Source of the DNA: Beggiatoa alba B18LD
GTDB taxonomy: Bacteria; Pseudomonadota; Gammaproteobacteria; Beggiatoales; Beggiatoaceae
NCBI RefSeq assembly: GCF_000245015.1
Contig: NZ_JH600070.1
Location: 823,594-887,593, forward strand
Direction: 5' to 3'
DNA: 64,000 nucleotides
Shown here: piece by piece, positions 32,461 through 47,569 of the stretch
How the letters are laid out: each line of letters starts with the position of its first letter
Position numbering within the stretch: position 1 is the stretch's first letter
Program-made: the position numbers and the translations under genes
The notes under the pieces: generated by a model
The model's database searches: none
What the model was told of the DNA's origin: nothing
What the model saw: only the letters and a program-made list of their open reading frames with translations

Positions 32461-33153
32461 TTAAAGTTTTGCTAAATAATCCAAAACTTGCCATGCACGG
32501 GACTGAATTGCAGAAAAATAAGTAGTCGTTGCTAATAAATCCGCTTCAGTTTGTACATAAGTGTCGGCAATCAGTTCAGCTCGACAATTAGCGACAATGT
32601 CTTGCACACTGGCAGGCGTGGACTCTAGGTGAAACTGTAAACCAATGACGCGGTTATTGTATAAAAAGGCTTGGTGTTGACATGCGATGCTTTTCGCTAA
32701 AAGTGTCGCATGTTCAGGTAACGCAAAGGTATCACCATGCCAATGAAAAACAGGGAAATCGCTTGTTGCTTCGCCTAAAATCGCTGTGCTAATGCTTGGG
32801 TTTACTAACTCAATCGGAAACCAACCAATTTCTTTTTGTGGATTGCGTGTAACGCTCGCGCCTAATACGTCCGCAATCAATTGCGCCCCTAAGCAAATGC
32901 CCAATACTTTTTTATTCATTTGAATCGCTTGATGAATAAAAGCTTTTTCGCGGGTCAACCAAGCAAATTGTTCTACTTCATACACATTCATCGGCCCGCC
33001 TAAGACAATTAAACAATCGAATTGTGATAGGTCGGGCAATGGTTCATCATGAAAAAACCGCGTTGCACTCACTGTATGACCATTGTTTTCTATCCATGTT
33101 GCAATACTGGCGAGACCTTCAAACGGGACATGTTGCAAATAGTGAATGCGCAT
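32461..33153 (-). CDS. Class I glutamine amidotransferase (GMP-synthase-like)
   Basis: 230 residues forming a single GATase domain. The nucleophile is the Cys in VLGICLGAQLIADVLGA; FHWHGDTFALP and GLQFHLES supply the His and Glu of the triad. No synthetase domain is fused, so it belongs to the stand-alone group whose members act on varied gamma-glutamyl compounds. Its ATG overlaps the stop codon of the upstream stress-protein gene (TAATG), implying translational coupling. Confidence 0.9.
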   Translation of the reverse strand: MRIHYLQHVPFEGLASIATWIENNGHTVSATRFFHDEPLPDLSQFDCLIVLGGPMNVYEVEQFAWLTREKAFIHQAIQMNKKVLGICLGAQLIADVLGASVTRNPQKEIGWFPIELVNPSISTAILGEATSDFPVFHWHGDTFALPEHATLLAKSIACQHQAFLYNNRVIGLQFHLESTPASVQDIVANCRAELIADTYVQTEADLLATTTYFSAIQSRAWQVLDYLAKL

Positions 33154-33665
33154 TAGCTTTCCTCATTTGATGTATTTGATTGAATGGGAACGATGAGAAC
33201 TGGAATTGCTGATAATTGAGTGACACGTCGCGCAACAGAACCAATAAATAGCTCTCCTAATGCAGTATGTTCCCGTGTTCCCATCACTATCATGTCTATC
33301 TCTTGTGTTTTGGCGTAGTCGACAATGGCTTGTGCGGGGCTATGACCTTCAATAACGGTGATACTTTCTACTAAATGTTGGGTAACTTCAGAGTTCTTCA
33401 ATTCATTGATGCAAAACGCTTCTAATTCACTTTGCATTTTTTTTTGTACTTTTTCCACCGCTTCCGTGTGCATTTGTTTGGCTTTTTCTTCGGGGAAATG
33501 TGCTTCAAATAGGGCTTCGCCAAATGTACCAAGCTGTTCGGTCACGTGGACAAGTGTGAGGTGAGCGTTATAGCGATGGGTGAGACTGATTGCATAGCGA
33601 AAGACGATGTCAGCGTTTTCGCCCATGTCAGTTGCATATAGAATTTTTCTTACATTGGGCAACAT
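33153..33665 (-). CDS. Universal stress protein (UspA family), copy 1
   Basis: 170 residues, one Usp domain. N-terminal VRKILYATDMGENADIVFRYAISL and the C-terminal nucleotide-binding pattern MIVMGTREHTALGELFIGSVARRV are clear. AAAGGAG lies 7 bases upstream. It is about half identical by eye to the adjacent 33725 gene, so the two are a tandem duplication. The last codons overlap the amidotransferase start. Confidence 0.94.
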   Translation of the reverse strand: MLPNVRKILYATDMGENADIVFRYAISLTHRYNAHLTLVHVTEQLGTFGEALFEAHFPEEKAKQMHTEAVEKVQKKMQSELEAFCINELKNSEVTQHLVESITVIEGHSPAQAIVDYAKTQEIDMIVMGTREHTALGELFIGSVARRVTQLSAIPVLIVPIQSNTSNEES

Positions 33666-33724
33666 GTTGGTTTCTCCTTTGATGATAATAGCTAGATAGA
33701 TAGCAGATGACGCGACAGCTATTT

Positions 33725-34231
33725 TTAGGATTCGAAGGTTTTATTAATGTGCATGGGAACGACTAAAACGGGAATTTGAGCAATTTGGGTCACACGACGC
33801 GCAACTGAGCCAATGAAGAATTCGCCCAACATTGTATAGTTATGTGTACCCATGATAATCATGTCGGCTTCTATTTTTTTCGCTTCGTCGACAATGGTCT
33901 GTGCAACAGAGCCGTCTAATACTTGAATACTATCAATCAGGTGGCTTTCTGCGGAGGTGGTGTGCAATTCTTCAGCACAAAAGGCTTCTAAACGTTGTTG
34001 CATTTTAGTGCGGACTTCGTTAATTGCGTCTGTGTGCATTTTTTCCGCCATATCGCGGGGAATATAAGTTTCTAATAAAGCAGCACCGACAGTGCCTAAG
34101 GGTTCTAACACGTGAACAATACGAATAGTCGCGCCGTATTTTTGTGCCATGCTGATGGCGTAACGTAACACGATACGAGATTGTTCGCCTAAATCAGCAG
34201 GATAAAGGATTTTTTTAATTTGTGGCAACAT
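33725..34231 (-). CDS. Universal stress protein (UspA family), copy 2
   Basis: 168 residues starting at ATG 34231 (MLPQIKKILYPADLGEQ), which has AAGGA 8 bases upstream and matches the start of its tandem paralogue; the frame stays open to 34288, but that longer form lacks a ribosome-binding site. The domain ends in MIIMGTHNYTMLGEFFIGSVARRV. It is the first gene of the unit stress protein - stress protein - amidotransferase - OLD-like ATPase, divergent from trpD. Confidence 0.93.
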   Translation of the reverse strand: MLPQIKKILYPADLGEQSRIVLRYAISMAQKYGATIRIVHVLEPLGTVGAALLETYIPRDMAEKMHTDAINEVRTKMQQRLEAFCAEELHTTSAESHLIDSIQVLDGSVAQTIVDEAKKIEADMIIMGTHNYTMLGEFFIGSVARRVTQIAQIPVLVVPMHINKTFES

Positions 34232-34398
34232 GGCAAGTATCCTTCTTGTGGTGGCAAAGAAAGTAAAATGAGAAATTAAATTGTGCAATTCATCATAGCA
34301 TAAGTTTTTTAATGGGCATCAGTCACAATTGCGAGCCTTTTGATGAGGGTTATAATGTTAAGTGACTGAGATAACCGCATCATATAGAGTAAAAAAAT

Positions 34399-35427
34399 AT
34401 GGATATAAAAACGGCATTAAAAGCCATTATTGAAAAACAAGATTTAAGTCGTGAGGAGATGTTATCCGTAATGACAGAAATCATGACAGGACAAGCAACC
34501 CCTGCGCAAATTGGCGGTTTTTTAATAGGACTGCGCATGAAAGGGGAAACCGTCGAGGAAATTACAGCCGCAACGCAGGTGATGCGCGACCTTGCTATCC
34601 CTGTCAAGGTTGATGTACCTAATCTTGTTGATATTGTTGGCACAGGGGGCGATGGGCAGAGTACGTTTAATATTTCGACAACCAGTGCCTTTGTGGTTGC
34701 GGCAGCGGGCGCACATGTGGCTAAACATGGCAATCGTTCTGTGTCTAGCCGTTCAGGCAGTGCGGATATTTTAGAGGCATTAGGGGTAAAATTAGATTTA
34801 ACCCCTGAGCAAATTGCGGATTGTGTGGAAAAAATCGGCGTGGGTTTTATGTTCGCCCCTCAACATCATACCGCCATGAAACATGCCATTGTGCCCCGTC
34901 GTGAAATGGCAGTGCGAACGATTTTTAATTTATTAGGTCCAATGACTAACCCTGCTAAAGCCCCAAATCAGTTGTTGGGCGTTTATAGCCGCGATTGGTT
35001 AGAACCTGTTGCCGAGGTATTAAAACGCTTAGGCAGTCGCCATGTGTTAGTGGTGCATTCTGCGGATGGTTTAGACGAAATCAGCGTTGCCGCACCGACG
35101 TATGTTGCTGAGTTAAAAGATGGCAATATTCGCAGCTATACCATAGAACCTGAATTATTTGGCATTCAAACTGCGCCATTAAGTACGATTCAAGTAAATT
35201 CTGTCGCGGAAAGTTTAACCCTAGTTAATCGCGTTTTAGACAATCAAACCAGTCCTGCTCGTGATGTAGTGCTTCTCAACGCAGGCGCGACATTGTACGT
35301 ATCAGGTATGGCAAGTGATATTATGCAAGGCATTGCAAAAGCAAGAGAGGTATTAGCAAACGGGTCAGCAAAGCAAAAATTAGCGATGTTGATACAACAT
35401 TCCAATCATTTTAAACAGCCCGCTTAA
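34399..35427 (+). CDS. trpD: Anthranilate phosphoribosyltransferase TrpD
   Basis: Transfers phosphoribose from PRPP to anthranilate in tryptophan synthesis. 342 residues with [18 protein letters not shown], the PRPP-binding [31 protein letters not shown] and the [21 protein letters not shown] stretch. trpC and trpG are not adjacent, so the trp genes are scattered or split. Element R6 follows. Confidence 0.97.
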
Positions 35428-35430
35428 TTT

Positions 35431-35724
35431 TGACAAAAAAGGCTTTTGTCTGAATCAGGATTCACAGGATTTTCAGGATTAGCAGGATTAAAAAGCGTGA
35501 TTCACCTGACCTTAACTTTTTGGTTTAAGGGTTTTAAATCCTGTTAATCCTGAAAATCCTGATTCAGACAATGTTTTAATCTCTTCTGATGAATCTTGAT
35601 GAAAAACAGGAGAGTAATCTCTGCCAGTCCTTCAACCCTTTTCGCGTGTTCCGACAGACCTGCTAGGTTTTTAAAACCTAGCAGGTCTCTGTTTTATTTT
35701 ATAAATCTTGCAGAACTCGAGTTA
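35431..35724. repeat. Palindromic element R6 (composite), convergent junction
   Basis: About 294 bp. The left outer arm is reduced to GACAAAAAAGGC. Then TTGTCTGAATCAGG, four CAGGATTNN units, a GCGTGATTCACC centre, three mirrored AATCCTGNN units, ATCTCTTCTGATGAATCTT, a CTGCCAGTCCTTCAACC piece shared with the HA/HB hairpins, TTCGCGTGTTCCGACAG, and a CCTGCTAGG hairpin (35657-35689), ending CAGAACTCGAGTTA. It joins modules of several types in one locus. Confidence 0.87.
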
Positions 35725-35744: not shown

Positions 35745-36482
35745 TCACAATTTCATTTTGACAAAAATTGCTTCGGGAATTGATTTAATAATCAACATAA
35801 TCCCTTGCCAGAACCAAGGCGTATAAAGCACTTTTTTTCCTTTTGTAATCGCGTTATCAATATCTTGTGCCACTTTATCAGGGCTTGCGAATAAGAAGTT
35901 CTTTTTAATTGAGGCGGTCATTGGTGTATCGACAAAACCCGGTTTAACGGTGAGGACTTGCACGCCTGATTTAAATAAGCGATTGCGTAAACCTTGTAAA
36001 AACAGACTTAATGCTCCTTTTGCAGACCCATACACATAATTGCTTTGTCGCCCTCTATCGCCTGCAATGGAGGAAATAACAACGATACTGCCTTGTTTAC
36101 GTTTTTCAAAATAATTGCCTAAGTCAGTTAGTAAAGAGGCAACGCTTAAGAAATTCGTGATGAACTCTTTTTCTGCTACTTTAAAATCTTGTTCTGCGGC
36201 TTGTTGGTCGCCTAATGTTCCATAAGCAATCACGACAATATCAATTTGTTGTAACGCTTTTTCTGCGGTGCTTAACACCGTTTTATGTTGCGTTATATCA
36301 CTTAAATCGACGGCTAAAAAATCACTGCTAGACGCACCACGGGTTTTTAAATCTGCTTGAATTACCTGCAATTTTTGCGCATCACGTCCGACTAAAAATA
36401 AATGCTCCCCACGTTGTGCGAAGCGTTTGGCGAGCGATTGCGCAATCATCGATGTTGCGCCAAGAATTAAAATACGTTTCAT
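35745..36482 (-). CDS. SDR-family oxidoreductase, DprE2-like
   Basis: 245-residue short-chain dehydrogenase: NAD(P)-binding ILGATSMIAQSLAKRFA (Ser-containing variant of the glycine-rich motif), VIAYGTLGD, the catalytic Ser region VVISSIAGDRG, YVYGSAKGALSLF (Tyr-x3-Lys), and KPGFVDTPMT. In mycobacteria DprE2 reduces decaprenyl-phospho-2-keto-erythropentofuranose to the arabinose form, next to DprE1. Here it lies 6 bases after the DprE1-like gene, and the UbiA-type gene is next again, so the same role is likely. Last gene of the operon. Confidence 0.87.
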   Translation of the reverse strand: MKRILILGATSMIAQSLAKRFAQRGEHLFLVGRDAQKLQVIQADLKTRGASSSDFLAVDLSDITQHKTVLSTAEKALQQIDIVVIAYGTLGDQQAAEQDFKVAEKEFITNFLSVASLLTDLGNYFEKRKQGSIVVISSIAGDRGRQSNYVYGSAKGALSLFLQGLRNRLFKSGVQVLTVKPGFVDTPMTASIKKNFLFASPDKVAQDIDNAITKGKKVLYTPWFWQGIMLIIKSIPEAIFVKMKL

Positions 36483-36488
36483 AAAATA

Positions 36489-37808
36489 TTATCCGTTTTT
36501 CGCTGGTCGTTGGGTGACTCTACGCCAGAAACTAGAGGAAAAATGAGGGTCTATAAAAGTTTGAAATCTTTCCCATTCAGGATAGAAATGCTTGAAATCA
36601 CTGCCAGCCATACGGGCATCTTTTGCAGGGTATAAACGTCCCCCATCTTCGCGCACAATGGCATCTAAACGCGCAAATAGTTTATGTGTCGCATCGCCTT
36701 TATTGGCAAAATCTAAGGCAAGCGTGATACCTGCGCGGGGAAACGAGAGTAAGCCAGCGGACGGAATTTTGCCAAAGATTTTAATCACGGAGAGGAACGA
36801 GCCTTCCCCACTTTTAGCAATTTCTGCCAAAATACTTTTAATTACATGCGGGTCATTTTCTGAAACCACGCATTGATATTGGAAAAATCCCCGTTTGCCA
36901 TAAATCCGATTCCAACGTTGTACGCTGTCTAAGGGGTAAAAGAAGGGTAAATAATGGCTAACACCACGAGTCACTTCGGGCACTTGCTTGTTAAAATACA
37001 GGAAATTAAAGGCTTTAACGCTGGCATGATTTAAAACAAAATTAGGCATGTCTAACGGGACAGAAAGCCATTTCGACAGTTTTTTCGGGGCGGGTTCTTG
37101 GTCAAATAAGGGTGGGGCGTGATTGCCTTGCATAAATAGCCCCCGACTGCGTTTTTCTTGTAAACAGTCTAACCATGCAACGGTATAAATATAATCTTTT
37201 TCTGAAGCTTTGGATAAGGCAAGAAACTCCTCAATACTATGAAATTTAATACTTTCCATTTGAATAAAGGGGTTATTCATTGGAATGAGTTGAATTTCTG
37301 CCCACGTGATTAAACCTGTTAAGCCTAAACCGCCAATTGTCGCGCCAAACCAGTCGGAATTATTAGTTTTAGAACATAATAAGCGTTGTCCATCAGAGCG
37401 TAATAATTCAAATTGTCGCACATGACAGCCAAAAGTCCCCGCAATATGGTGATTTTTACCATGCACATCGTTTGCGATTGCCCCGCCTAGCGTGACAAAT
37501 TGCGTTCCTGGTGTGACGGGTAAAAACCAGCCCATTGGTACGATAAATTGTAAAATTTCTTGTAAAGAAACGCCTGATTCACAACGTAATATGCCCGTTG
37601 TGCGGTCAAACTGGATAAAGTGATTTAAATAACGGGTGTCTAATAAAATGCCTTTGTCATTCAAGCACACATCGCCATAACTGCGCCCTTTGCCATAGGC
37701 AAGTACAGGTTTACGTGCAAGCACTGGAATGTTATCGCTTGCCCATTGCACAGGGAAAATGGTTTGTTCTGTGCTGGGATAGCGTCCCCATGATTGATAA
37801 GTTGTCAT
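36489..37808 (-). CDS. FAD-linked oxidase, DprE1-like
   Basis: 439-residue FAD-binding oxidoreductase of the VAO/DprE1 class. FAD-binding segment GKGRSYGDVCLNDKGILLDTRYLNHF (first 20 residues conserved), VTPGTQFVTLGGAIANDVHGKNHH and TIGGLGLTGLITWAEIQL, with the C-terminal LYPAKDARM region that in DprE1 carries an active-site Lys. DprE1 oxidises the C2 hydroxyl of polyprenyl-phosphoryl-ribose. Gap to the UbiA-type gene 14 bases, to the SDR gene 6 bases. Cys387, the benzothiazinone target of mycobacterial DprE1, could not be aligned by eye. Confidence 0.87.
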   Translation of the reverse strand: MTTYQSWGRYPSTEQTIFPVQWASDNIPVLARKPVLAYGKGRSYGDVCLNDKGILLDTRYLNHFIQFDRTTGILRCESGVSLQEILQFIVPMGWFLPVTPGTQFVTLGGAIANDVHGKNHHIAGTFGCHVRQFELLRSDGQRLLCSKTNNSDWFGATIGGLGLTGLITWAEIQLIPMNNPFIQMESIKFHSIEEFLALSKASEKDYIYTVAWLDCLQEKRSRGLFMQGNHAPPLFDQEPAPKKLSKWLSVPLDMPNFVLNHASVKAFNFLYFNKQVPEVTRGVSHYLPFFYPLDSVQRWNRIYGKRGFFQYQCVVSENDPHVIKSILAEIAKSGEGSFLSVIKIFGKIPSAGLLSFPRAGITLALDFANKGDATHKLFARLDAIVREDGGRLYPAKDARMAGSDFKHFYPEWERFQTFIDPHFSSSFWRRVTQRPAKNG

Positions 37809-37822
37809 TGTGATGTGTTCGG

Positions 37823-39256
37823 TTAGAGAAATTTTGCTAGTAAAACAATGATAAAAATCATCAGCGCAACAATATGGCTGACACGGTCACGCAGGGCGAA
37901 AACTATCGGGTCATCGTGCATACCGCCACGGTGCGAAATCAGCCAAACGCGGCTAATCCAATACAATAAAATCACGCAAACAAACCATAATAAATCGGGT
38001 GAGCTGTACATATCACGGATGTTGTGAACATATAACGCCAAGACTAACACGGAGATAAAGCCACTTGATACGCCTATCGAGGCTAAAATTTCTAAATCAT
38101 CCGCCACATAGCCCCGCCCTTTCGCACTGGTTTGATTATTCCGCCGTAATACCAACATTTCGGAATGACGTTTTACCACCGCTAAACAGAGGAAAATAAA
38201 TAGAGAAAATGCCAGTAACCAGTGTGAAACCACAGAGTCTGTCATCGCGGCAGAGCCTGCAATCACCCGTAAGGTGTAGAGCGTAGCAAGACAAAAAACA
38301 TCGATTAAAACCATGCTTTTTAAGACAAACGAGTAAGCAAGGGTTAAAACGTAATAAATCCCCAATACGGCCCAAAACTTCGGCGGTAACGCGAGCGACA
38401 GTAATAAACTAACGAGTAAGCAAGCAGGAAATAGCAATAAACCAATTTGTATCGGGATTGCGCCCGATGCAAAGGGACGTTTGCGTTTACGGTGATGATG
38501 GCGGTCAGCCTCTAAGTCTAATAAATCATTGAGAATATAAGCACTGGAAGCGGCAAAGCTAAAGGCAAAAAATGCGAAAATGGCATTTTCTAACAGTGGT
38601 AAGTTTAAAATTTGTTGCGACGCTAACAATGGAATGAAAATTAAAGTATTTTTCACCCATTGATGCATCCGTAACGCGGCAGGAATCGCTTTAACCCAGC
38701 GTGTTTTGCGGGGAAATTCAGCGATAATTTGCGTTAATTGCTTGGCTTGTTGCGTCACACTGCGGGATGTATTGACTAGCACGCCTGCTTGCGCATGTTG
38801 CCAAACAGCTAAATCGGCGCGACTATCGCCCGCGTAGGCAAAGGGTTGTCCTGCAAAATAGTCATGTAAAAATTGCGCTTTTGCCATGCCTTTTAAATTA
38901 CGGGTCGCATTCGTCGCCAGCACCGCATTAAAAATGCCTAAATGGTCAGCAATTTTTTGCGCGATGGATTCATGTGAGGCAGTGACTAATAACAGTTGCC
39001 TACCTGTTTGCCGTTCATTTTTTAAATACTCGATGAATTCTTCATGATACGGTAAACAAGTGACATCAAAGTCAACATGTTCATTTAATTTGGTTTTTAA
39101 ATAGGCTTTACCCTTGAATAGCCAAAAAGGCAATAGAAGTAATAAGAAAGGTTTTTTCTTTAACAGCTTAATAAACCCTTCATACAGCATATCGGTTTTA
39201 ATCAGTGTATCGTCAAGGTCGACACAAAGTGGGATTAAAGTAGTATTTACAGTCAT
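37823..39256 (-). CDS. HAD-UbiA fusion: polyprenyl-phosphate phosphoribosyl transferase-like
   Basis: 477 residues. The N-terminal ~200 residues form a HAD phosphatase (DLDDTLIKTD; LLVTASHE; AYAGDSRADLAVW). The C-terminal ~270 form a UbiA prenyltransferase with about nine helices; its first Asp motif is ILNDLLDLEADRHHHRKRKRP and a later motif is in RVIAGSAAM. In mycobacteria the UbiA enzyme (Rv3806c) makes decaprenylphosphoryl-5-phosphoribose and a separate phosphatase removes the 5-phosphate; the HAD domain here could supply that phosphatase in the same chain (inference). It sits just upstream of the DprE1/DprE2 pair. Confidence 0.86.
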   Translation of the reverse strand: MTVNTTLIPLCVDLDDTLIKTDMLYEGFIKLLKKKPFLLLLLPFWLFKGKAYLKTKLNEHVDFDVTCLPYHEEFIEYLKNERQTGRQLLLVTASHESIAQKIADHLGIFNAVLATNATRNLKGMAKAQFLHDYFAGQPFAYAGDSRADLAVWQHAQAGVLVNTSRSVTQQAKQLTQIIAEFPRKTRWVKAIPAALRMHQWVKNTLIFIPLLASQQILNLPLLENAIFAFFAFSFAASSAYILNDLLDLEADRHHHRKRKRPFASGAIPIQIGLLLFPACLLVSLLLSLALPPKFWAVLGIYYVLTLAYSFVLKSMVLIDVFCLATLYTLRVIAGSAAMTDSVVSHWLLAFSLFIFLCLAVVKRHSEMLVLRRNNQTSAKGRGYVADDLEILASIGVSSGFISVLVLALYVHNIRDMYSSPDLLWFVCVILLYWISRVWLISHRGGMHDDPIVFALRDRVSHIVALMIFIIVLLAKFL

Positions 39257-39282
39257 GTGTTAATTAGAAAAAGGCTGACCGT

Positions 39283-39975
39283 TCAGTATTCTTGACGGTT
39301 GAAATGGAGCGTGCAAAGTTGTTCAAAACGACGGCACGCGGTGGAATAATGGCGTTGATTTTCTTGTTGAATTGCCTGAATGTCAATATAAGCCCCTTGC
39401 TCTTTTAGCCATTGCGCATAATCCTGTCCTTGCCCTTCATTTTCCATTAAAACGGGTAAATTCAGATTAAACAGTTTGTTAAAAAGCGCGATACTGTCGG
39501 CATAAGCTTCTGTTAAACCCACAAAATGAAATTGATTTAATGGAATCTTGCCACAGAACAGGGCATAAAATTGACGTTGCTTGGGCAAATTGGCAAAAGC
39601 GGTAATAGAAAGCTGTTGACTTATCAACTGTCGACACATGCTATTTTGCAAATCGGGATGACGTTGCCAATGCCAATAATGCGAAACTAAACGGGCGATA
39701 GGTTCACGAAAAAAGGTACAAAATTGCGCAGTTTCACCTAAAAAAGCATATTTATCCGCAATAAAATGTCCATGTACCGCTTGATAAGTATTTAAAACCG
39801 TTTGGGGTTGAAAACGCAGTTGTAAGCGACGACGCAGACGCATATAGCGATGTTGCCAATCATCGGATAAGGGCTTATCGGCATAATCTAACAAGAGTTT
39901 ATCGCCAACTGTTTGGGTTAACGCATTGCCTAAACTTGTGCCTGCGGTTTTAGGGATGTGCACGGAAATCAGCAT
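39283..39975 (-). CDS. Sulfotransferase (family 2 type)
   Basis: 230-residue protein opening with the 5'-phosphosulfate-binding loop ISVHIPKTAGTSLGNAL, with the 3'-phosphate region CTFFREPIARLVSHYWHW. It transfers sulfate from PAPS, probably to a glycan. Its ATG overlaps the stop codon of the upstream gene (TAATG), and it is followed by 26 bases before the UbiA-type gene. No signal peptide, so it acts in the cytosol before export of the acceptor. Acceptor unknown. Confidence 0.87.
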   Translation of the reverse strand: MLISVHIPKTAGTSLGNALTQTVGDKLLLDYADKPLSDDWQHRYMRLRRRLQLRFQPQTVLNTYQAVHGHFIADKYAFLGETAQFCTFFREPIARLVSHYWHWQRHPDLQNSMCRQLISQQLSITAFANLPKQRQFYALFCGKIPLNQFHFVGLTEAYADSIALFNKLFNLNLPVLMENEGQGQDYAQWLKEQGAYIDIQAIQQENQRHYSTACRRFEQLCTLHFNRQEY

Positions 39976-41717
39976 TAATTGCCCCCTTTGTTATAACCGA
40001 ATGCGTGCAGGTATTCGCTACATAAATCATCAATCAATTGCAAATCATGCGCGTCTAAGGTTGTACGTTTATGGCGAATTTCAGAGGGTTGAATACTCGC
40101 GGGTAAATGTAACGTAGGGGCTTGTGGGATTTTCTGAAAAATCGTTCTTAGGCTATCCACGGGATTTAAGACTAACTGCTCATAACGGACTAAATGCACA
40201 TCCGTTTGTACGCTTAAAATCGTTTCTGCTAAATAACACCAAAGCAAAACCCGTTTTAAAGCAACATCCACTGTGTCTGCAATTCGTTGCAAGCGTTGCC
40301 GTTGCCACCCTGCTAATGCACTATCTTGATAATGTCCCACAGGAAAAGTTTCTACACTGGCTTGTTTTAAATGGTTAAATGTACCTTTCCACGAAGCAAT
40401 GGTATCAATAGGATGACGCACGCAAACGATAATAGGCGCGTGTGGCATCACGGTTCGCAATTGTTGCATACGGGCTAAATACGCCAGTGTATTTTTAGTA
40501 AACAGGACAAAATCAGGACGATACACGCTAGGCAAATAAGTTTCGCGTGTATCAATGATAGCTGTATCTTCAATCACTTCCCCATCTTTGATTTTATTTT
40601 CTATCGCTTGCCCGTTCAAAATATCGCGCCGTACTTCTTGATAATACAAAGCAATTTGATAAGGCGGGAAAGGTTGCTGTAAAGGTTGAAAAATTTGTGT
40701 CGGTTCATTAATCACCACACAATTTTCTACTTTATGCAGTAAGCGACATAAATAACTCGTGCCACTACGTGGAAGCCCTGTAATAAAGGCTTCTGGGCGG
40801 GCTTGTTGCGCACTGGGTTGTAATGGTGGTGAACGGCTAAACCAATGCGTTTTTTTCTCAACCTGATAAGGCTTACTTAAAATGTCCCATTCAGGCAAGT
40901 TTGCCATTTGTTGCTGTAAAGCAGGATATGCCCGCACAAGCCGATTAACAACCTGATTTAATGCAGGTTCACGCCGTAAAACGCTGGGTTTGTGATAATG
41001 ACATAAAACCGCTTGCGGATGAAACGGCTTTAAATGTGCGGGATAATTAAAGCGTTCATCTAAACAACTGAAATCCATACCCAATCTTGCCAATGTCACA
41101 GGTAGGGCTAACTGGTCTAACCAGCGGGGACGTTCTGCAATAATGCCACTTTGTAAAATCCGCCGACAACTATCCGCCCATGTTTGCGCAAATTGGGATT
41201 GGTTCGGAATGCCTAAAAAACCCGCATTAAAATAAGGGTGTAGCAATTCTTGACTGACGCTACTAAAAACATAACGCGCTGGTACAGGTAAGTTAAATAG
41301 TTCATAAACAGATGTCCAAAATTTAGGTTCTGTCGTAAACGCACCTAAATCGACGGGTTTTGCATGTAAAACAGGACGCAACCAATCATAAGCGGGTGTA
41401 AATTCTTGATAACATAAAATATCACTATCGAGAAAAAAGATTTTTTCCGCACTGGTTTCTATGCCTAAACAAGCGATTTTATTGCCAATGGGGTATTGCG
41501 TATCGACCCAATTTGTGATGGGAACAACACGCACGCCTAGACTTTTTAATAATTCCAGTGTTGACGGTTGAGGCGTACCCCAATCTGTCGCAGGCGTTGG
41601 CACTGTAGCAACCAGTTCATAATTACAGCGGAGAAAGGTTTTTAAGGAAATGGCAAGCAGTAATGCCTTGATTTCTAGCTCGCCTTGTTGACAAACAAAG
41701 GTGAAACAGTAGTGCAT
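39975..41717 (-). CDS. Glycosyltransferase/sulfotransferase fusion protein
   Basis: 580 residues. The N-terminal ~290 look like a GT-A glycosyltransferase: MHYCFTFVCQQGELEIKALL strand, EKIFFLDSDILCYQEF with a DxD-like DSD, and HPYFNAGFLGIP. The C-terminal ~270 form a PAPS sulfotransferase: FITGLPRSGTSYLCRLL (5'-PSB), VINEPTQIF and IIVCVRHPIDTIASWKG (3'-PB). It is the first gene of the operon, 165 bases from the divergent recombinase gene. The fusion suggests a sugar is added and then sulfated by one protein; acceptor unknown. The GT half lacks close similarity to families I know well, so its class is tentative. Confidence 0.8.
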   Translation of the reverse strand: MHYCFTFVCQQGELEIKALLLAISLKTFLRCNYELVATVPTPATDWGTPQPSTLELLKSLGVRVVPITNWVDTQYPIGNKIACLGIETSAEKIFFLDSDILCYQEFTPAYDWLRPVLHAKPVDLGAFTTEPKFWTSVYELFNLPVPARYVFSSVSQELLHPYFNAGFLGIPNQSQFAQTWADSCRRILQSGIIAERPRWLDQLALPVTLARLGMDFSCLDERFNYPAHLKPFHPQAVLCHYHKPSVLRREPALNQVVNRLVRAYPALQQQMANLPEWDILSKPYQVEKKTHWFSRSPPLQPSAQQARPEAFITGLPRSGTSYLCRLLHKVENCVVINEPTQIFQPLQQPFPPYQIALYYQEVRRDILNGQAIENKIKDGEVIEDTAIIDTRETYLPSVYRPDFVLFTKNTLAYLARMQQLRTVMPHAPIIVCVRHPIDTIASWKGTFNHLKQASVETFPVGHYQDSALAGWQRQRLQRIADTVDVALKRVLLWCYLAETILSVQTDVHLVRYEQLVLNPVDSLRTIFQKIPQAPTLHLPASIQPSEIRHKRTTLDAHDLQLIDDLCSEYLHAFGYNKGGN

Positions 41718-41882: not shown

Positions 41883-43067
41883 ATGTCCGCCAATAACGCG
41901 CTAAAACTCACAAAAACCAGTGTTGAAAAATTACCTTATCCCGAAACAGGACAAGTTTTTTACCGCGACACAGAATTAAAAGGCTTTGGGCTACGAGTCA
42001 CCAAAGGCTCAAAAACCTATATTGTCGAAAACAGTATTTGCGGTAAAGCCTGTCGAGTCACTATCGGAAAACAAACCGTTTTTACGGCGGAACAAGCACG
42101 GGTGATTGCTAAAAAATTACTGGCTGACATTGCGGTTGGCATTAATCCCAACCAACAAAAAGCCTTAGAACGGCGCAAAACAATCACTTTACACGCGGTT
42201 TTTAAAGACTTTATGAATACACGGACTTTAAAGCCTAAAACGTGTTATTTATATCAAAAGTGTTTCGAACGGGTCTTTGCAACATGGCATCACAAACAAA
42301 TTACCGAGATTAACCGCACAAACATTGCAGAACATTATCAACATATTTGCCAAGCACATGGCGACGCTTACGCTAATTTAAGTTTTAGATTATTGCGAAC
42401 ACTCTTCAACTTTGCCATTGCCAGCCATGAGGAGTTAATGAATGTGAATCCTGTTAATGTGTTGCATGATAAACGTCAATGGAAAGTCATTCCGCGTCGC
42501 CAACGATTTATTAAAAATCATCAGCTCATTGCATGGTGGCAAGCCGTCGAACAGTTAGAAAACACAACATTACGCGACTATTTTCAGCTTTTACTCCTCA
42601 CAGGGCTACGCAAACAAGAAGCTGCAACACTGCAATGGTCATCCATTGATTTACAAGAAAAAACCATGACGATTACAGAAACAAAAAACGCACAACCGCA
42701 TACCCTGCCATTAAGCGAATATCTCTACAGTCTGTTACAACGTCGCCAACAACTCACAAACAGTATTTGGGTTTTTCCCAATCCTGCGACACAAAAGCCA
42801 TTCATTGAATTACGCCAACAATTAAAATTAATTACAGAAAAGTCAGGTATTAATTTCACTTGCCACGATTTACGCCGTACTTTTGCGACACTTGCGGAAA
42901 GCCTAGAAATCTCTAGTTATGCAGTAAAACGCTTGTTAAATCATAAACAAAGCCAAGATGTGACTGCGGGCTATATCGTCCATGATGTAGAACGTTTACG
43001 CGCCCCGATGGAACGAATCACCCAAACGATTTTAAAACATTGTCTGAATCAGGATTTTCAGAATTAA
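41883..43067 (+). CDS. Tyrosine recombinase/integrase (P4-like, with Arm domain)
   Basis: 394 residues. N-terminal Arm DNA-binding domain (VFYRDTELKGFGLRVTKGSKTY; TIGKQTVFTAEQAR), core-binding domain about 100-200, catalytic domain about 215-375. Catalytic residues: Arg in LTGLRKQEA, Lys in TETKNAQPHTLPL, HDLRRTFATLA, His in LLNHKQ and Tyr in TAGYIVHD. It looks intact. No phage, excisionase, tRNA target or flanking direct repeat is seen, so it is an orphan. Its last nine codons (KHCLNQDFQN) run into element R7, so the natural C-terminus may have been replaced. A loose TATAAT-like sequence lies about 48 bases upstream of the ATG. Confidence 0.9.
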   Translation: MSANNALKLTKTSVEKLPYPETGQVFYRDTELKGFGLRVTKGSKTYIVENSICGKACRVTIGKQTVFTAEQARVIAKKLLADIAVGINPNQQKALERRKTITLHAVFKDFMNTRTLKPKTCYLYQKCFERVFATWHHKQITEINRTNIAEHYQHICQAHGDAYANLSFRLLRTLFNFAIASHEELMNVNPVNVLHDKRQWKVIPRRQRFIKNHQLIAWWQAVEQLENTTLRDYFQLLLLTGLRKQEAATLQWSSIDLQEKTMTITETKNAQPHTLPLSEYLYSLLQRRQQLTNSIWVFPNPATQKPFIELRQQLKLITEKSGINFTCHDLRRTFATLAESLEISSYAVKRLLNHKQSQDVTAGYIVHDVERLRAPMERITQTILKHCLNQDFQN

Positions 43068-43381: not shown

Positions 43382-46300
43382 GTGCAACTGATTGTTTTAG
43401 GAATGCACCGCGCGGGAACGTCTAGCGTTGCGCGGTTGCTCAATATGATGGGGGCGTATTTCGCGCCAGAGCGGGGCAGTTCACCAACTAAAGCGGCTTT
43501 AACCGCCACAGAAGATAATCCCAAAGGTTATTGGGAACGTTGGGATGTCGTACATACTAATGAAGAAATAATGCAAGCGATGGGCTTGGCGTGGGATAGA
43601 ATCAGTACATTTTCCGCCGAGCAAATTACCCCCGAATTGATAACACGGTTTAAACCCGACGTGCAGGATATTATCAGCGGTTTAGATGGTTATCGCCCTT
43701 GGATGATTAAAGACCCGCGTTTATCTATTACCTTGCCTGTGTGGTTGCCTTTATTAGAAGTTCCTGTCTTTCTCTTCGTCCATCGCAGTCCTATCCAAGT
43801 CGCGCAATCATTACACAAACGCGACGGCATCAGCATTCCCGCAGGGTTAGCACTATGGGAAAAATATACTTTGCACGCCCTGCAAGCGACACAAGGACAT
43901 CCGCGCATTATTATTTCTTATGAACAATTAATGCGTGAGCCTATCGCTAGCACCTTGCATTTATACGAACAATTAACTGCTTTAGGCATTCATGGCTTGC
44001 ATTTACCCGCCGAGCGCGAAATCTTAGCCTTTATCGACCCGCAATTGTATCGTCAACAAGGCGATAGCACGCTACAACGCGGTTATGTCAATTATTGTCA
44101 ATGGCAATTAATTCAATGGTTTGAAGACAATTCAATTTTTGTGAAATCTGTGCCAAGTTTGTCACAAGGTGCGGTTGAAGCGTTACAACGTTATGAAAAT
44201 CAGCAAGCAATTGCCGAAGAACACGCATTAGAACAGCAAAAAACCATTGCCAAACATGTCGCCAGTTTACAAGACAGTCAAGACAGCGTGCAGGCATTAA
44301 CGCAAGAATTAAATCAGTTAAAACAAGTTGCACAACAACAAGCAATGGTTTTACCACAATTAAAGCAACATTTAGCGGAAAAAGAACAATATATTCAACA
44401 GCAAGTTGAGTTTATTCAACGGTTACAAGCGCAACAACAAACCGCACACTATCAGTATGATTCCCTCAAAGAACAACATCATCTTGAATTAAATCAGTTA
44501 GCCGAAAAAATTCATCACTTGCATGATAACTACCAAAGCCAATTAATGCAGGTTAAACAGCAGTTTGACGCGCTACAAGCCGATTACAATGCCCTACAAA
44601 ATCGTTATAAACAACAAGACCAAACCATTGGCGAATTAACTGCAAATACCCGTCGTCAAGCCCATCATGTCGAACGGTTAAATCATTGGGTTAATTCACT
44701 CGGCGTTAATATTCAAGCCACTTTTGAGTCATTAACGTGGAAAATTGGCAACACTGCAACCCAAGCAATTTTAGCTTTAATGCTGAAAAAACAAGGCTTA
44801 ACGGCAAAAGACAGTATTCAACGAGTTTTAACTGAGATAGCCGACTGGCGGTCACGGTTTCAAACCCAGCAAGCAGGCTTAAATTTTCAAGAAACCGTGC
44901 ACAATCCAAGAGATTATGCGCGTTGGTTTTCCACTTATGATGAATTAACCCCAACACTGGAAGAGCAAGCGAAACAATTTGTTGCACAGTGGATTAATCC
45001 GCCGTTAATTTCCATCATTATGCCGACTTATAACACGCCTGAAGCGTTTTTACGGGAGGCGATAGAATCCGTCATTCAACAAATTTATCCGCATTGGGAA
45101 TTATGTATTGCTGATGATGCTTCGCCAAAATCCCATGTGCGGGAAATTTTGGCAGAATATGCCGCAAAAGATGCACGAATCAAAGTTGTTTATCGGGAAA
45201 AAAACGGACACATTGCCGCCGCCAGCAACAGCGCGTTAGCCCTTGCGACGGGTGAATTTATTGGCTTTATCGACCACGATGACCAATTAGCCAAACATGC
45301 CTTATTTTGGGTCGCAAAGGATATTTTAGAAAATCCCGAGGCAATGCTCTGGTATTCCGACGAGGATAAAATTAATGAAGAAAATGACCGCTACGACGTG
45401 CATTTTAAACCCGATTGGAATCCTGATTTATTTCTTTGCTACAACTTCGTCAATCACTTAGCCGTCTATCGTGCGAGCCTAATTCAACAAGTTGGCGGAT
45501 TACGCACAGGCTACGATGGTGCGCAAGATTACGACTTAGTCCTGCGTTTACTGCCATTACTCAAAACGGAACAAATTCGCCATATTCCGCATGTGTTATA
45601 CCATTGGCGAGCGATTGCAGGCAGTACCGCCGTTAGCAGTGATGAAAAACCCTATGCACAAATTGCCGCACAAAAAGCCATCCAAGCCTATTTAGACGGA
45701 CAAGGGATTAACGCAACTGTTATCGATGCCCCTGAATTAAAAGGCGCGAATCGGGTTAAATATGGCTTACCTGAAAAATTACCCTTGGTGAGCTTATTAA
45801 TTCCGACCTTCAACGGCTTAAATGTGCTAAAAGTCTGCATTGATAGCATTTTAGAAAAAACCGCTTATCCTGCTTATGAAATCATTATCGTCGATAACAA
45901 CAGCAACGACGCGGACACCCTAGATTATTTACAAGCCCTTGCGGACAGTGGCAAAGCGCGGATTATTCGTTATCCTAAACCGTTTAATTATTCCGCAATT
46001 AACAATTTAGCCGCAGAATATGCCAATGGTTCATTAATTGGGCTATTAAATAATGATTTAGAAGTAATTTCTCCCGATTGGTTGGGCGAAATGGTCGGGC
46101 ACGCACTCCGTCCTGAGGTCGGCATTGTTGGTGCGCGTTTATGGTATCCTAACAATACCTTACAACATGGCGGGGTTATCGTCGCGCTGGGTGGGGTTGC
46201 AGGACATTCGCATAAATATTTCCCGAAAAATGACGCGGGTTATTTTGGGCGAGCCGTTTTACAACAAAACTTTTCTGCCGTAACAGGCGCGTGCATGATT

Positions 46301-47569
46301 ATGCGCAAAGAAGTCTATTTCGCTGTTGGCGGTTTAGACGCAAAAAATCTACGTATTGCCTTTAATGATGTGGATTTCTGCTTGCGGGTGCGCGAAAAAT
46401 TAGGCTTGTGGAATGTGTGGACACCCTACGCAGAATTGTATCACCACGAATCGATTAGCCGAGGAAAAGAAGACACCCCTGAAAAAATCCAACGTTTCCA
46501 AAGCGAAATGGATTATATGAAACAACGCTGGGCTTATAGTTATTTAGGTGAGCCACCCAATGACCCCGCTTATAATCCTAATTTAACGGTAGTGACAGAA
46601 GATTTTGCCCTTGCATGGCCGCCGCGCGTGTCGGGACTCTTACCAACAATTTTACATAGCCGTGATAAATCCTATGTTAAACAAAGCGTATTAATAACAG
46701 AAACTAGCGACAATCCTGTAGCAACAACAGTAGCAACGCCACAACCTAGCGAAGACTTATTTATTCTGCCCCCGCCACCAACATTAGACGCGCTATTAAC
46801 AGCCGAGTTAGAGAGCTTAAACACGCTCACACAATATAAAGGGCATAAACCGCCACAACGGCTACCGATAGCAAGCCTTATTCACCGTAACGCGGGTTAT
46901 CAGTTACTGCATGGGCAAGGCTTAGAGATTGGCGCATTACACTTACCCGCCTTATTGCCTGATACGTGTGAATTAGTGTATGCCGATGCGATTAGTCGAG
47001 AACAAGCGCAACAAATATTCTCTGAGTTAAACCCCGCTGAGTTGGTCACGGTTGATTATGTTTTAGATTTAGATAAAGACGGCTTAGGCATGTTCCCGCG
47101 TCAATCGTTTGATTTCGTGATTTGTGCGGGAGTTTTAGAAGATACCGCAAACCCGATTAAAGCCTTACGGGGAATTTTCCGCGTTTTAAAAACAGGTGGT
47201 TACGCGGTGCTAGCTGTGCCTGATAAACGGTATGGCTCTGATAAAAACAGAGAGTTAACCCCATTTAGCCACTTATTACAGGCATATCAAGAGAATGTGT
47301 GCGCAGTGACAGATACACAATATTTAGACTTTTTCAAACATATTCATGCGGATGTCTTTAACAATACACGGCGCGAGGAAGAGCTAGCAGAACATCTTGC
47401 GCATGTGCGTCGTCGACGTGAAAACGTGCAAGTTTGGGATAGCCTGAGTTTTGAACATTGTTTACGCCAAACCTTGGAAATTCTGGATATACAAGCTATC
47501 CCTGTGTACACCCACACAGGCGATGAAAACCAACTGGAATATTTCGCTGTTTGGCAAAAGCAGAATTAA
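43382..47569 (+). CDS. Sulfotransferase / GT2 / GT2 / methyltransferase megaprotein
   Basis: 1395 residues, GTG start at 43382 preceded by GGGAG. Order: PAPS sulfotransferase (1-230; LGMHRAGTSSVARLL, LFVHRSPIQVAQSLHKR); Gln/His-rich coiled coil (about 265-435); GT2 domain 1 (about 541-765; SIIMPTYNTPEAFL, IADDASPKS, GFIDHDDQL, YSDEDKINEE); GT2 domain 2 (about 800-1055; LLIPTFNGLNVLKVCI, IIIVDNNSNDADT, GLLNNDLEVISPDWL, FNDVDFCLRVREKLG); Pro-rich linker about 1110-1140; SAM methyltransferase (about 1175-1395; GLEIGALHLPALLPD, SFDFVICAGVLEDT). It can probably add two sugars, methylate and sulfate a surface glycan. No signal peptide. Next to alaS only through R8, no export genes adjacent. Confidence 0.87.
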   Translation: MQLIVLGMHRAGTSSVARLLNMMGAYFAPERGSSPTKAALTATEDNPKGYWERWDVVHTNEEIMQAMGLAWDRISTFSAEQITPELITRFKPDVQDIISGLDGYRPWMIKDPRLSITLPVWLPLLEVPVFLFVHRSPIQVAQSLHKRDGISIPAGLALWEKYTLHALQATQGHPRIIISYEQLMREPIASTLHLYEQLTALGIHGLHLPAEREILAFIDPQLYRQQGDSTLQRGYVNYCQWQLIQWFEDNSIFVKSVPSLSQGAVEALQRYENQQAIAEEHALEQQKTIAKHVASLQDSQDSVQALTQELNQLKQVAQQQAMVLPQLKQHLAEKEQYIQQQVEFIQRLQAQQQTAHYQYDSLKEQHHLELNQLAEKIHHLHDNYQSQLMQVKQQFDALQADYNALQNRYKQQDQTIGELTANTRRQAHHVERLNHWVNSLGVNIQATFESLTWKIGNTATQAILALMLKKQGLTAKDSIQRVLTEIADWRSRFQTQQAGLNFQETVHNPRDYARWFSTYDELTPTLEEQAKQFVAQWINPPLISIIMPTYNTPEAFLREAIESVIQQIYPHWELCIADDASPKSHVREILAEYAAKDARIKVVYREKNGHIAAASNSALALATGEFIGFIDHDDQLAKHALFWVAKDILENPEAMLWYSDEDKINEENDRYDVHFKPDWNPDLFLCYNFVNHLAVYRASLIQQVGGLRTGYDGAQDYDLVLRLLPLLKTEQIRHIPHVLYHWRAIAGSTAVSSDEKPYAQIAAQKAIQAYLDGQGINATVIDAPELKGANRVKYGLPEKLPLVSLLIPTFNGLNVLKVCIDSILEKTAYPAYEIIIVDNNSNDADTLDYLQALADSGKARIIRYPKPFNYSAINNLAAEYANGSLIGLLNNDLEVISPDWLGEMVGHALRPEVGIVGARLWYPNNTLQHGGVIVALGGVAGHSHKYFPKNDAGYFGRAVLQQNFSAVTGACMIMRKEVYFAVGGLDAKNLRIAFNDVDFCLRVREKLGLWNVWTPYAELYHHESISRGKEDTPEKIQRFQSEMDYMKQRWAYSYLGEPPNDPAYNPNLTVVTEDFALAWPPRVSGLLPTILHSRDKSYVKQSVLITETSDNPVATTVATPQPSEDLFILPPPPTLDALLTAELESLNTLTQYKGHKPPQRLPIASLIHRNAGYQLLHGQGLEIGALHLPALLPDTCELVYADAISREQAQQIFSELNPAELVTVDYVLDLDKDGLGMFPRQSFDFVICAGVLEDTANPIKALRGIFRVLKTGGYAVLAVPDKRYGSDKNRELTPFSHLLQAYQENVCAVTDTQYLDFFKHIHADVFNNTRREEELAEHLAHVRRRRENVQVWDSLSFEHCLRQTLEILDIQAIPVYTHTGDENQLEYFAVWQKQN

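Follow-up and report, generated by a model that had tools for sequence, protein, structure and literature searches.

The five-gene cassette of Beggiatoa alba

The genome of Beggiatoa alba B18LD (NCBI RefSeq assembly GCF_000245015.1) exhibits a run of five minus-strand genes at positions 35745 to 41717 of a 64,000-nt stretch of contig NZ_JH600070.1 (positions 823,594 to 887,593; this whole stretch is referred to as the window). Three of the genes encode relatives of the enzymes DprE1, DprE2 and UbiA of the mycobacterial decaprenyl-phospho-arabinose pathway, the UbiA relative being fused to an N-terminal HAD domain, and the other two encode sulfotransferase-like proteins (Table 1). An initial annotation, made from the letters of the window alone, had described this layout as an operon, and its coordinates, its strand and the gaps of 6 bases (between the DprE2-like and DprE1-like genes) and 14 bases (between the DprE1-like and HAD-UbiA genes) are all confirmed. 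A gap of 26 bases separates the HAD-UbiA gene from the sulfotransferase gene, which overlaps the next gene by 1 base. The order of all five genes is common to the sole other genome of the same genus searched (G005), with amino acid identities of 72, 80, 84, 88 and 91%, in a chromosomal setting that differs from that of the window. Very likely, these genes make a lipid-linked D-arabinofuranose, a sugar donor familiar above all from the cell walls of mycobacteria.

The HAD-UbiA protein matches family PRK08238 far above the cut-off, its HAD part (residues 8 to 165, approximately) corresponding to a 5-phosphatase and the remainder (about 187 to 467) to a polyprenyl-phosphate phosphoribosyltransferase. 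Residues 187 to 467 also match the solved mycobacterial phosphoribosyltransferase 8j8j (E-value = 8e-30), and the matches to PRK12324 models (119-155 bits) stay below their cut-offs. The motif N-D-x2-D-x3-D, a later R-x2-E and the HAD motifs with the aspartate nucleophile are all present. In an alignment of 11 of the HAD-UbiA places found in genomes of the order, residues D13, D15, T17, D144 and D148 of the HAD domain, and N243, D244, D247, D251, R363 and E366 of the UbiA domain, are invariant in 11 of 11 sequences. Kelly et al. (2024) reported that ORF15 of Citrobacter youngae, in which a HAD domain likewise precedes UbiA, makes farnesyl-phospho-ribofuranose from phosphoribosyl pyrophosphate, and that its nucleophile mutant D18A yields the 5-phosphate product together with a little dephosphorylated product (PMC11127046). 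The catalytic spacing is the same in both proteins: N243/D244/D247/D251 and R363/E366 correspond to N247/D248/D251/D255 and R366/E369 of ORF15, the latter taken from the text of PMC11127046 and not from an alignment with ORF15. The suggestion that the HAD domain serves as the 5-phosphatase is thus supported by the published activity of a fused homologue and by the invariant motifs, and so is the assignment of the trio to a polyprenyl-phospho-pentofuranose donor.

The other two proteins of the trio are named cautiously. Since neither the DprE1-like protein (E-value = 3e-104) nor the DprE2-like protein (E-value = 7.5e-54) reaches the cut-off of its equivalog model, and since the plain short-chain dehydrogenase/reductase (SDR) family PRK07102 (325.3 bits, cut-off 267) outscores the DprE2 model and is the top model for the latter protein, "DprE1-like" and "DprE2-like" are the safe names. 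In 14 control genomes, the DprE1 model finds a weak match in 10 and a match above the cut-off in one. Among solved structures the best matches of the DprE1-like protein are those of DprE1 itself (E-value = 3e-75 and below 2e-70; next family, 3e-10), and that of the DprE2-like protein is DprE2 (21gq_C, E-value = 7e-30; next, 4e-15). By hand count on the alignment, the DprE1-like protein keeps Y60, H132, K367 and K418, which we take to be catalytic-site residues of DprE1, and exhibits an alanine in place of C387, presumably the target of benzothiazinones. The Ser-Tyr-Lys site of SDR enzymes is present in the DprE2-like protein (YxxxK and an upstream serine).

At the cytoplasmic face of the membrane, the trio would make a D-arabinofuranose donor linked to polyprenyl phosphate; judged by characterised homologues and kept motifs, we hold these donor steps to be highly probable. 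Pathways of lipid-linked pentofuranose have already been described in Gram-negatives, for O antigens, Pseudomonas pilins and rhizobial Nod factors (PMC11127046, PMC12369383, PMC5080398), the arabinosylation of pilins and Nod factors being the earlier Gram-negative cases (PMC12369383, PMC5080398). Kelly et al. report DprE1/E2 homologues in candidate systems for glycans that contain arabinofuranose, and for Xanthomonas they mention systems in which several epimerases or GT-C glycosyltransferases are candidates (PMC11127046). The claim of the initial annotation, a mycobacterial-type arabinose donor in a Gram-negative bacterium, was therefore right in kind and not new.

Distribution of the donor genes

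Among 42 genomes of the order, 31 exhibit a UbiA or HAD-UbiA match (in 29 of them to HAD-UbiA or a fragment thereof, in G003 and G006 to UbiA only; G017, with a sole UbiA match of E-value 1.7e-4, was counted as negative), and 31 exhibit DprE1 (E-value <= 1e-20). Both are found together in 30 genomes, UbiA alone in one (G033), DprE1 alone in one (G030) and neither in 10 (Fisher p = 8e-8, uncorrected for ancestry). The corresponding numbers for the 32 genomes that are at least 90% complete are 25, 1, 0 and 6. The two genes lie close together in six genomes (G000, G005, G016, G041, G006 and G003); in the remaining 24 genomes having both, they are on separate contigs or at least 48 kb apart. As the genes co-occur even without linkage, this is good evidence for one shared pathway. 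A trio assembled by chance or by mis-annotation was rejected on the model scores and this co-occurrence.

We also considered named loci, the best 80 of at least 578 confirmed HAD-UbiA relatives, which as a best-scoring subset lean to near relatives. Within their flanks, tblastn finds DprE1 in 45 loci and DprE2 in 39, after exclusion of DprE2 matches below 110 bits and of all matches of the 1395-aa window protein (Table 1). This count replaces an earlier one based on open reading frames (ORFs; DprE1 in 33 loci, no HAD-UbiA ORF called at 9 loci), since spurious ORFs on the opposite strand masked genes in GC-rich DNA. Both genomes of one genus encode a membrane protein of about 1000 aa immediately after HAD-UbiA (L047:10452-13466 and L053:6133-9144), the one at L053 exhibiting a spermine-synthase domain (PF01564). 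A mobile origin of HAD-UbiA was considered and rejected: one phage record matches over 40% of the query, all of the 102 matching plasmid records are below 60% identity, and viral contigs yield one partial UbiA match.

A second locus and a candidate transferase

In 11 of the 80 named loci the HAD-UbiA gene is accompanied by an extended-type SDR (with TGxxGxxG and YxxxK motifs), an FAD enzyme and a GtrA protein, and 11 of these 11 loci have both DprE1 and DprE2. They include loci of Dyella, Frateuria, Luteibacter, Pseudoxanthomonas, Stenotrophomonas and Aquitalea; at locus L187 the three additional genes are on the opposite strand. According to its record annotation, a Ruegeria plasmid carries UbiA, GtrA, an FAD-binding oxidoreductase and an SDR in one run. 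One genome of the order (G041) exhibits HAD-UbiA, broken between contigs C31 and C109, followed by DprE1, DprE2, SDR, FAD enzyme and GtrA.

The same additional genes are present in B. alba at a second locus (C2:3118589-3128481, within L114), separated from the cassette by about 2.26 Mb of the contig. It is a minus-strand run of genes for a methyltransferase, a sulfotransferase-SDR fusion (L114:11349-12986, 545 aa, the SDR being of the extended type), an FAD enzyme (a PRK07233 member, 532.6 bits), GtrA (C2:3124123-3124578, the sole PF04138 match of the genome), another methyltransferase, a 612-aa membrane protein and, past small ORFs, a 610-aa membrane protein. All seven genes are kept in G005 with 64-91% identity (82% for the fusion). 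In our reading, the cassette and the second locus form a single gene set that is divided in this genus, each part including a sulfotransferase. In the genomes of the order GtrA relatives associate with the FAD enzyme (p = 0.0004). GtrA would flip the lipid-linked donor across the membrane.

The initial annotation had called for a search for an arabinosyltransferase gene. None lies within the five genes, and a candidate is found elsewhere in the genome: the 612-aa protein, which carries an HNEHR motif and exhibits no Pfam or NCBIfam match up to E-value 0.1. HNEHR proteins (E-value <= 1e-5) occur in 15 of the 42 genomes of the order, all of which have UbiA or DprE1, and in none of the 10 genomes lacking both (p = 0.007). 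In 8 of the 12 genomes having both an HNEHR protein and the FAD enzyme (E-value <= 1e-60), the two are on the same contig at most 2.5 kb apart. At the named loci HNEHR proteins are found in 5 of 80, all DprE1-positive (P = 0.05), and 4 of these 5 are among the 11 loci at which SDR, FAD enzyme and GtrA are all present (P = 0.001). In Luteibacter (two), Aquitalea, a betaproteobacterial metagenome-assembled genome and Acidithiobacillus, such relatives share the strand of the donor genes and either lie among them or follow them immediately; in Frateuria the relative adjoins the donor genes but is read from the other strand. The sets from the order and from the named loci form one family (hhalign probability 99.8, E-value = 3e-28). 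An HNEHR paralogue (C2:2771694) lies among glycosyltransferase and methyltransferase genes in a cluster of polysaccharide type. In viral contigs 42 stretches fit the HNEHR pattern, none of which was confirmed as a relative.

An aspartate, a histidine and an Arg-Tyr pair are conserved in 21 of 21 aligned HNEHR sequences, of which those from the order represent 15 of 24 places (two with an internal stop and seven partial ones were excluded). Residues D31, H106, R349 and Y350 of the Citrobacter protein ORF12 are needed for its activity (PMC11127046); the likeness is one of residue order, ORF12 itself standing outside the alignment. When a structure model of the Luteibacter relative (predicted local distance difference test, pLDDT, 50) is compared by VIA-align, the top 27 rows are all GT-C enzymes or complexes holding one, the chain identity in a few complex entries being read from the title. 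The best is AftA (Z = 11.1, root mean square deviation 5.4, 297 residues aligned; rows within 1 Z count as ties), and MurJ (Z = 5.2) is the highest-ranking entry of a different fold. Since VIA-align cautions that a common arrangement of helices can bring helical proteins to Z 13, we call this likeness suggestive. By sequence, the profile of the family from the order finds no solved structure (one match, E-value = 2.4).

A GT-C-like membrane protein with the HNEHR motif would transfer the pentose to a glycan of the cell surface. Judging by gene neighbourhood, co-occurrence and fold, we give the GtrA protein as flippase and the HNEHR protein as transferase an even chance of being correctly assigned. 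The donor trio by itself is of a known kind; what is added here is its likely second half, a flippase and an unclassified transferase, at the second locus.

The sulfotransferases

The 230-aa protein is just above the cut-off of PF03567, and its G005 ortholog is 80% identical. The second gene of this pair had been annotated as a glycosyltransferase/sulfotransferase fusion, of which the sulfotransferase half holds: residues 310 to 528 match PF13469 (Sulfotransfer_3) clearly. The glycosyltransferase half is weak. Its N-terminal part (about residues 1 to 300) misses the cut-off of 24.3 for PF01501 (GT8; 16.6 bits, E-value = 0.006), the same part of the G005 ortholog (72% identity) exhibits no GT8 match at E-value <= 10, and a single-sequence structure model of it is uninformative (pLDDT 37). 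Against solved structures, the fusion sequence finds only adenylate kinase (E-value = 0.24).

The sulfotransferases at both loci would sulfate the surface glycan or its pentose. Sulfation is plausible by linkage in two species. A full-text search of the literature collection used found no paper joining arabinofuranose, sulfotransferase and lipopolysaccharide, and searches on Beggiatoa returned nothing relevant among the matches listed.

The proposal and its alternatives

Taken as a whole, we propose that the trio makes the donor, GtrA flips it, the HNEHR protein transfers the pentose, and the glycan or its pentose is sulfated; we lean towards this reading. Several observations weigh against it, some of which favour other explanations. 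At the 80 named loci there is no relative of either window sulfotransferase (tblastn, E-value <= 1e-6), so that the sulfotransferase link is based on two species, both belonging to one genus. The two genes might then be passengers, sharing the transcription unit of the donor genes and acting on another sulfation target, and the neighbouring 1395-aa protein exhibits a further sulfotransferase-like domain, which at 23.7 bits misses the PF13469 cut-off of 27. However, the five-gene order is kept in both genomes of the genus despite differing surroundings, and in both species the SDR belonging to this gene set carries a fused sulfotransferase at the second locus. We consider that the passenger explanation comes close to an even chance; sulfation and the acceptor as proposed, which are deduced from linkage, remain tentative and a shade less probable than that.

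Other observations bear on the second half of the proposal. In the order, 8 of the 42 genomes exhibit GtrA relatives, whose association with UbiA or DprE1 does not exceed chance (p = 0.16). With GtrA in 8 and the HNEHR protein in 15 genomes, the majority of the genomes must rely on other partners, and neither is a general partner of the donor genes. G033 exhibits UbiA, the FAD enzyme and an HNEHR protein without a DprE1 match. The model of the Luteibacter HNEHR relative is poor, and Foldseek finds nothing for it at E-value <= 0.001, the best match being an oligosaccharyltransferase (8age_A, E-value = 0.018). PMT_2-type proteins adjoin UbiA in G006 and occur close to the cassette at L187. There is also one PMT_2 match in the B. 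alba genome (C2:1612916, at a 3.4-kb locus of three ORFs), a candidate transferase that we favour less than the HNEHR protein. These PMT_2-type proteins agree with a different end point for the same donor, in which a transferase other than the HNEHR protein attaches arabinofuranose to type IV pilin, another protein or a secreted small molecule; uses of lipid-linked arabinofuranose on pilin (TfpW of Pseudomonas paraeruginosa) and on Nod factors have been published in Gram-negatives (PMC12369383, PMC5080398). On the other hand, the HNEHR proteins that accompany the donor genes at five named loci come from different bacteria, and the B. alba paralogue belongs to a cluster of polysaccharide type. 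We regard such an end point as unlikely.

Still less probable, in our view, is a donor other than D-arabinofuranose, for which the DprE1/DprE2-like pair would act at a different carbon or the sugar would be altered further by the SDR and FAD enzyme. The missed equivalog cut-offs count against D-arabinofuranose. An SDR travels with the trio in the 11 named loci, and in Citrobacter a single SDR epimerase converts ribofuranose to xylofuranose (PMC11127046). However, the nearest solved relatives of both proteins are the mycobacterial pair epimerising at C2. The kept residues of the DprE1-like protein also argue for D-arabinofuranose.

A bolder combination, in which HNEHR proteins form a new GT-C family for lipid-linked pentofuranose and the SDR and FAD enzyme perform a second epimerisation, leading to a sulfated pentofuranose new to polysaccharides such as D-lyxofuranose (with both C2 and C3 inverted), is very improbable. 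Kelly et al. state that no D-lyxofuranose glycan is known (PMC11127046), and a literature search on lyxofuranose gave no title on a bacterial polysaccharide among the matches listed.

If the HNEHR protein is an arabinosyltransferase, as in the proposal that we prefer, a membrane family without Pfam or NCBIfam match would be assigned a donor and a function open to testing, in sulfur bacteria of the Beggiatoa type, in Xanthomonadaceae and in Acidithiobacillus. The presence of a sulfotransferase in both halves of the gene set is a concrete hint of a sulfated pentofuranose glycan.

Neighbouring genes

Table 1. Cassette genes and neighbouring features, in window positions
Feature	Position	Strand	Match or basis
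Two similar small genes resembling universal stress proteins	33153-34288	-	
trpD-like gene	34399-35427	+	reading of sequence
15-pair hairpin, possible terminator	35656-35688		pattern scan only
DprE2-like SDR reductase, 245 aa	35745-36482	-	NF053786 183 bits (cut-off 250); structure match DprE2
DprE1-like FAD oxidase, 439 aa	36489-37808	-	NF053785 349.7 bits (cut-off 500); structure match DprE1
HAD-UbiA fusion, 477 aa	37823-39256	-	PRK08238 633.6 bits (cut-off 351); 8j8j
Sulfotransferase-like protein, 230 aa	39283-39975	-	PF03567 25.5 bits (cut-off 22)
Weak GT8-like/Sulfotransfer_3 fusion, 580 aa	39975-41717	-	PF13469 65 bits (cut-off 27)
Tyrosine integrase	41883-43067	+	Phage_integrase, Arm-DNA-bind_3
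1395-aa protein	43382-47569	+	PF13469 23.7 bits (below cut-off 27)
809-aa protein	51922-54351	+	two-partner (TPS) secretion domain

The cassette and the plus-strand trpD-like gene downstream of it converge on the hairpin; sites of the hairpin type exhibit no excess in the region (9, against 8.0 with standard deviation 2.8 in shuffles). Beyond this gene, the two small genes encode proteins that are 54% identical over their match. In G005, neither the trpD-like gene nor the universal-stress-like genes are near the cassette.

The integrase gene is immediately upstream of the operon and divergent from it; in G005 it does not adjoin the operon. A genomic island, which the integrase had suggested, was rejected: ARAGORN finds no tRNA in the window (attachment sites were not searched for). 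In the 1395-aa protein, the weak sulfotransferase-like stretch is N-terminal and is followed by mid-protein matches to SMC-type models, two GT2 domains and a methyltransferase, this C-terminal part sharing 47% identity with the first methyltransferase of the second locus.

Comparison with known systems

The mycobacterial decaprenyl-phospho-arabinose pathway (Rv3806c, Rv3807c, DprE1, DprE2, Rv3789, Emb/Aft) shares with the B. alba gene set relatives of UbiA, DprE1 and DprE2 and, under our proposal, would also share a GtrA-type or small flippase and GT-C arabinosyltransferases. In contrast to the fused HAD domain found here, the mycobacterial 5-phosphatase is a separate, unrelated enzyme (PMC11127046), and a mycobacterial arabinogalactan is not implied. 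The arabinosylation of pilin in P. paraeruginosa and that by rhizobial noeCNHOP are similar to the present system in using a lipid-linked D-arabinofuranose donor in a Gram-negative. They differ in their acceptors (pilin and Nod factor), in a phosphatase that is reported or proposed as a separate gene, and in exhibiting, in the passages covered, no linked sulfotransferase (PMC12369383, PMC5080398).

The system of C. youngae O1/O2 (HAD-UbiA ORF15, flippase ORF14 and GT136 transferase ORF12) resembles that of B. alba in the N-terminal position of HAD, in the same catalytic spacing, and, under our proposal, in its logic of lipid donor, flippase and GT-C transferase, with an added epimerase changing the pentose (PMC11127046). 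Citrobacter makes ribofuranose, or xylofuranose with one SDR epimerase, whereas B. alba exhibits DprE1/DprE2-like genes; its flippase is EmrE-like (PMC11127046), whereas the B. alba flippase would be GtrA. Finally, in B. alba the trio and the putative flippase/transferase genes are divided, unlike those of Citrobacter (PMC11127046), between two loci, each with a sulfotransferase.

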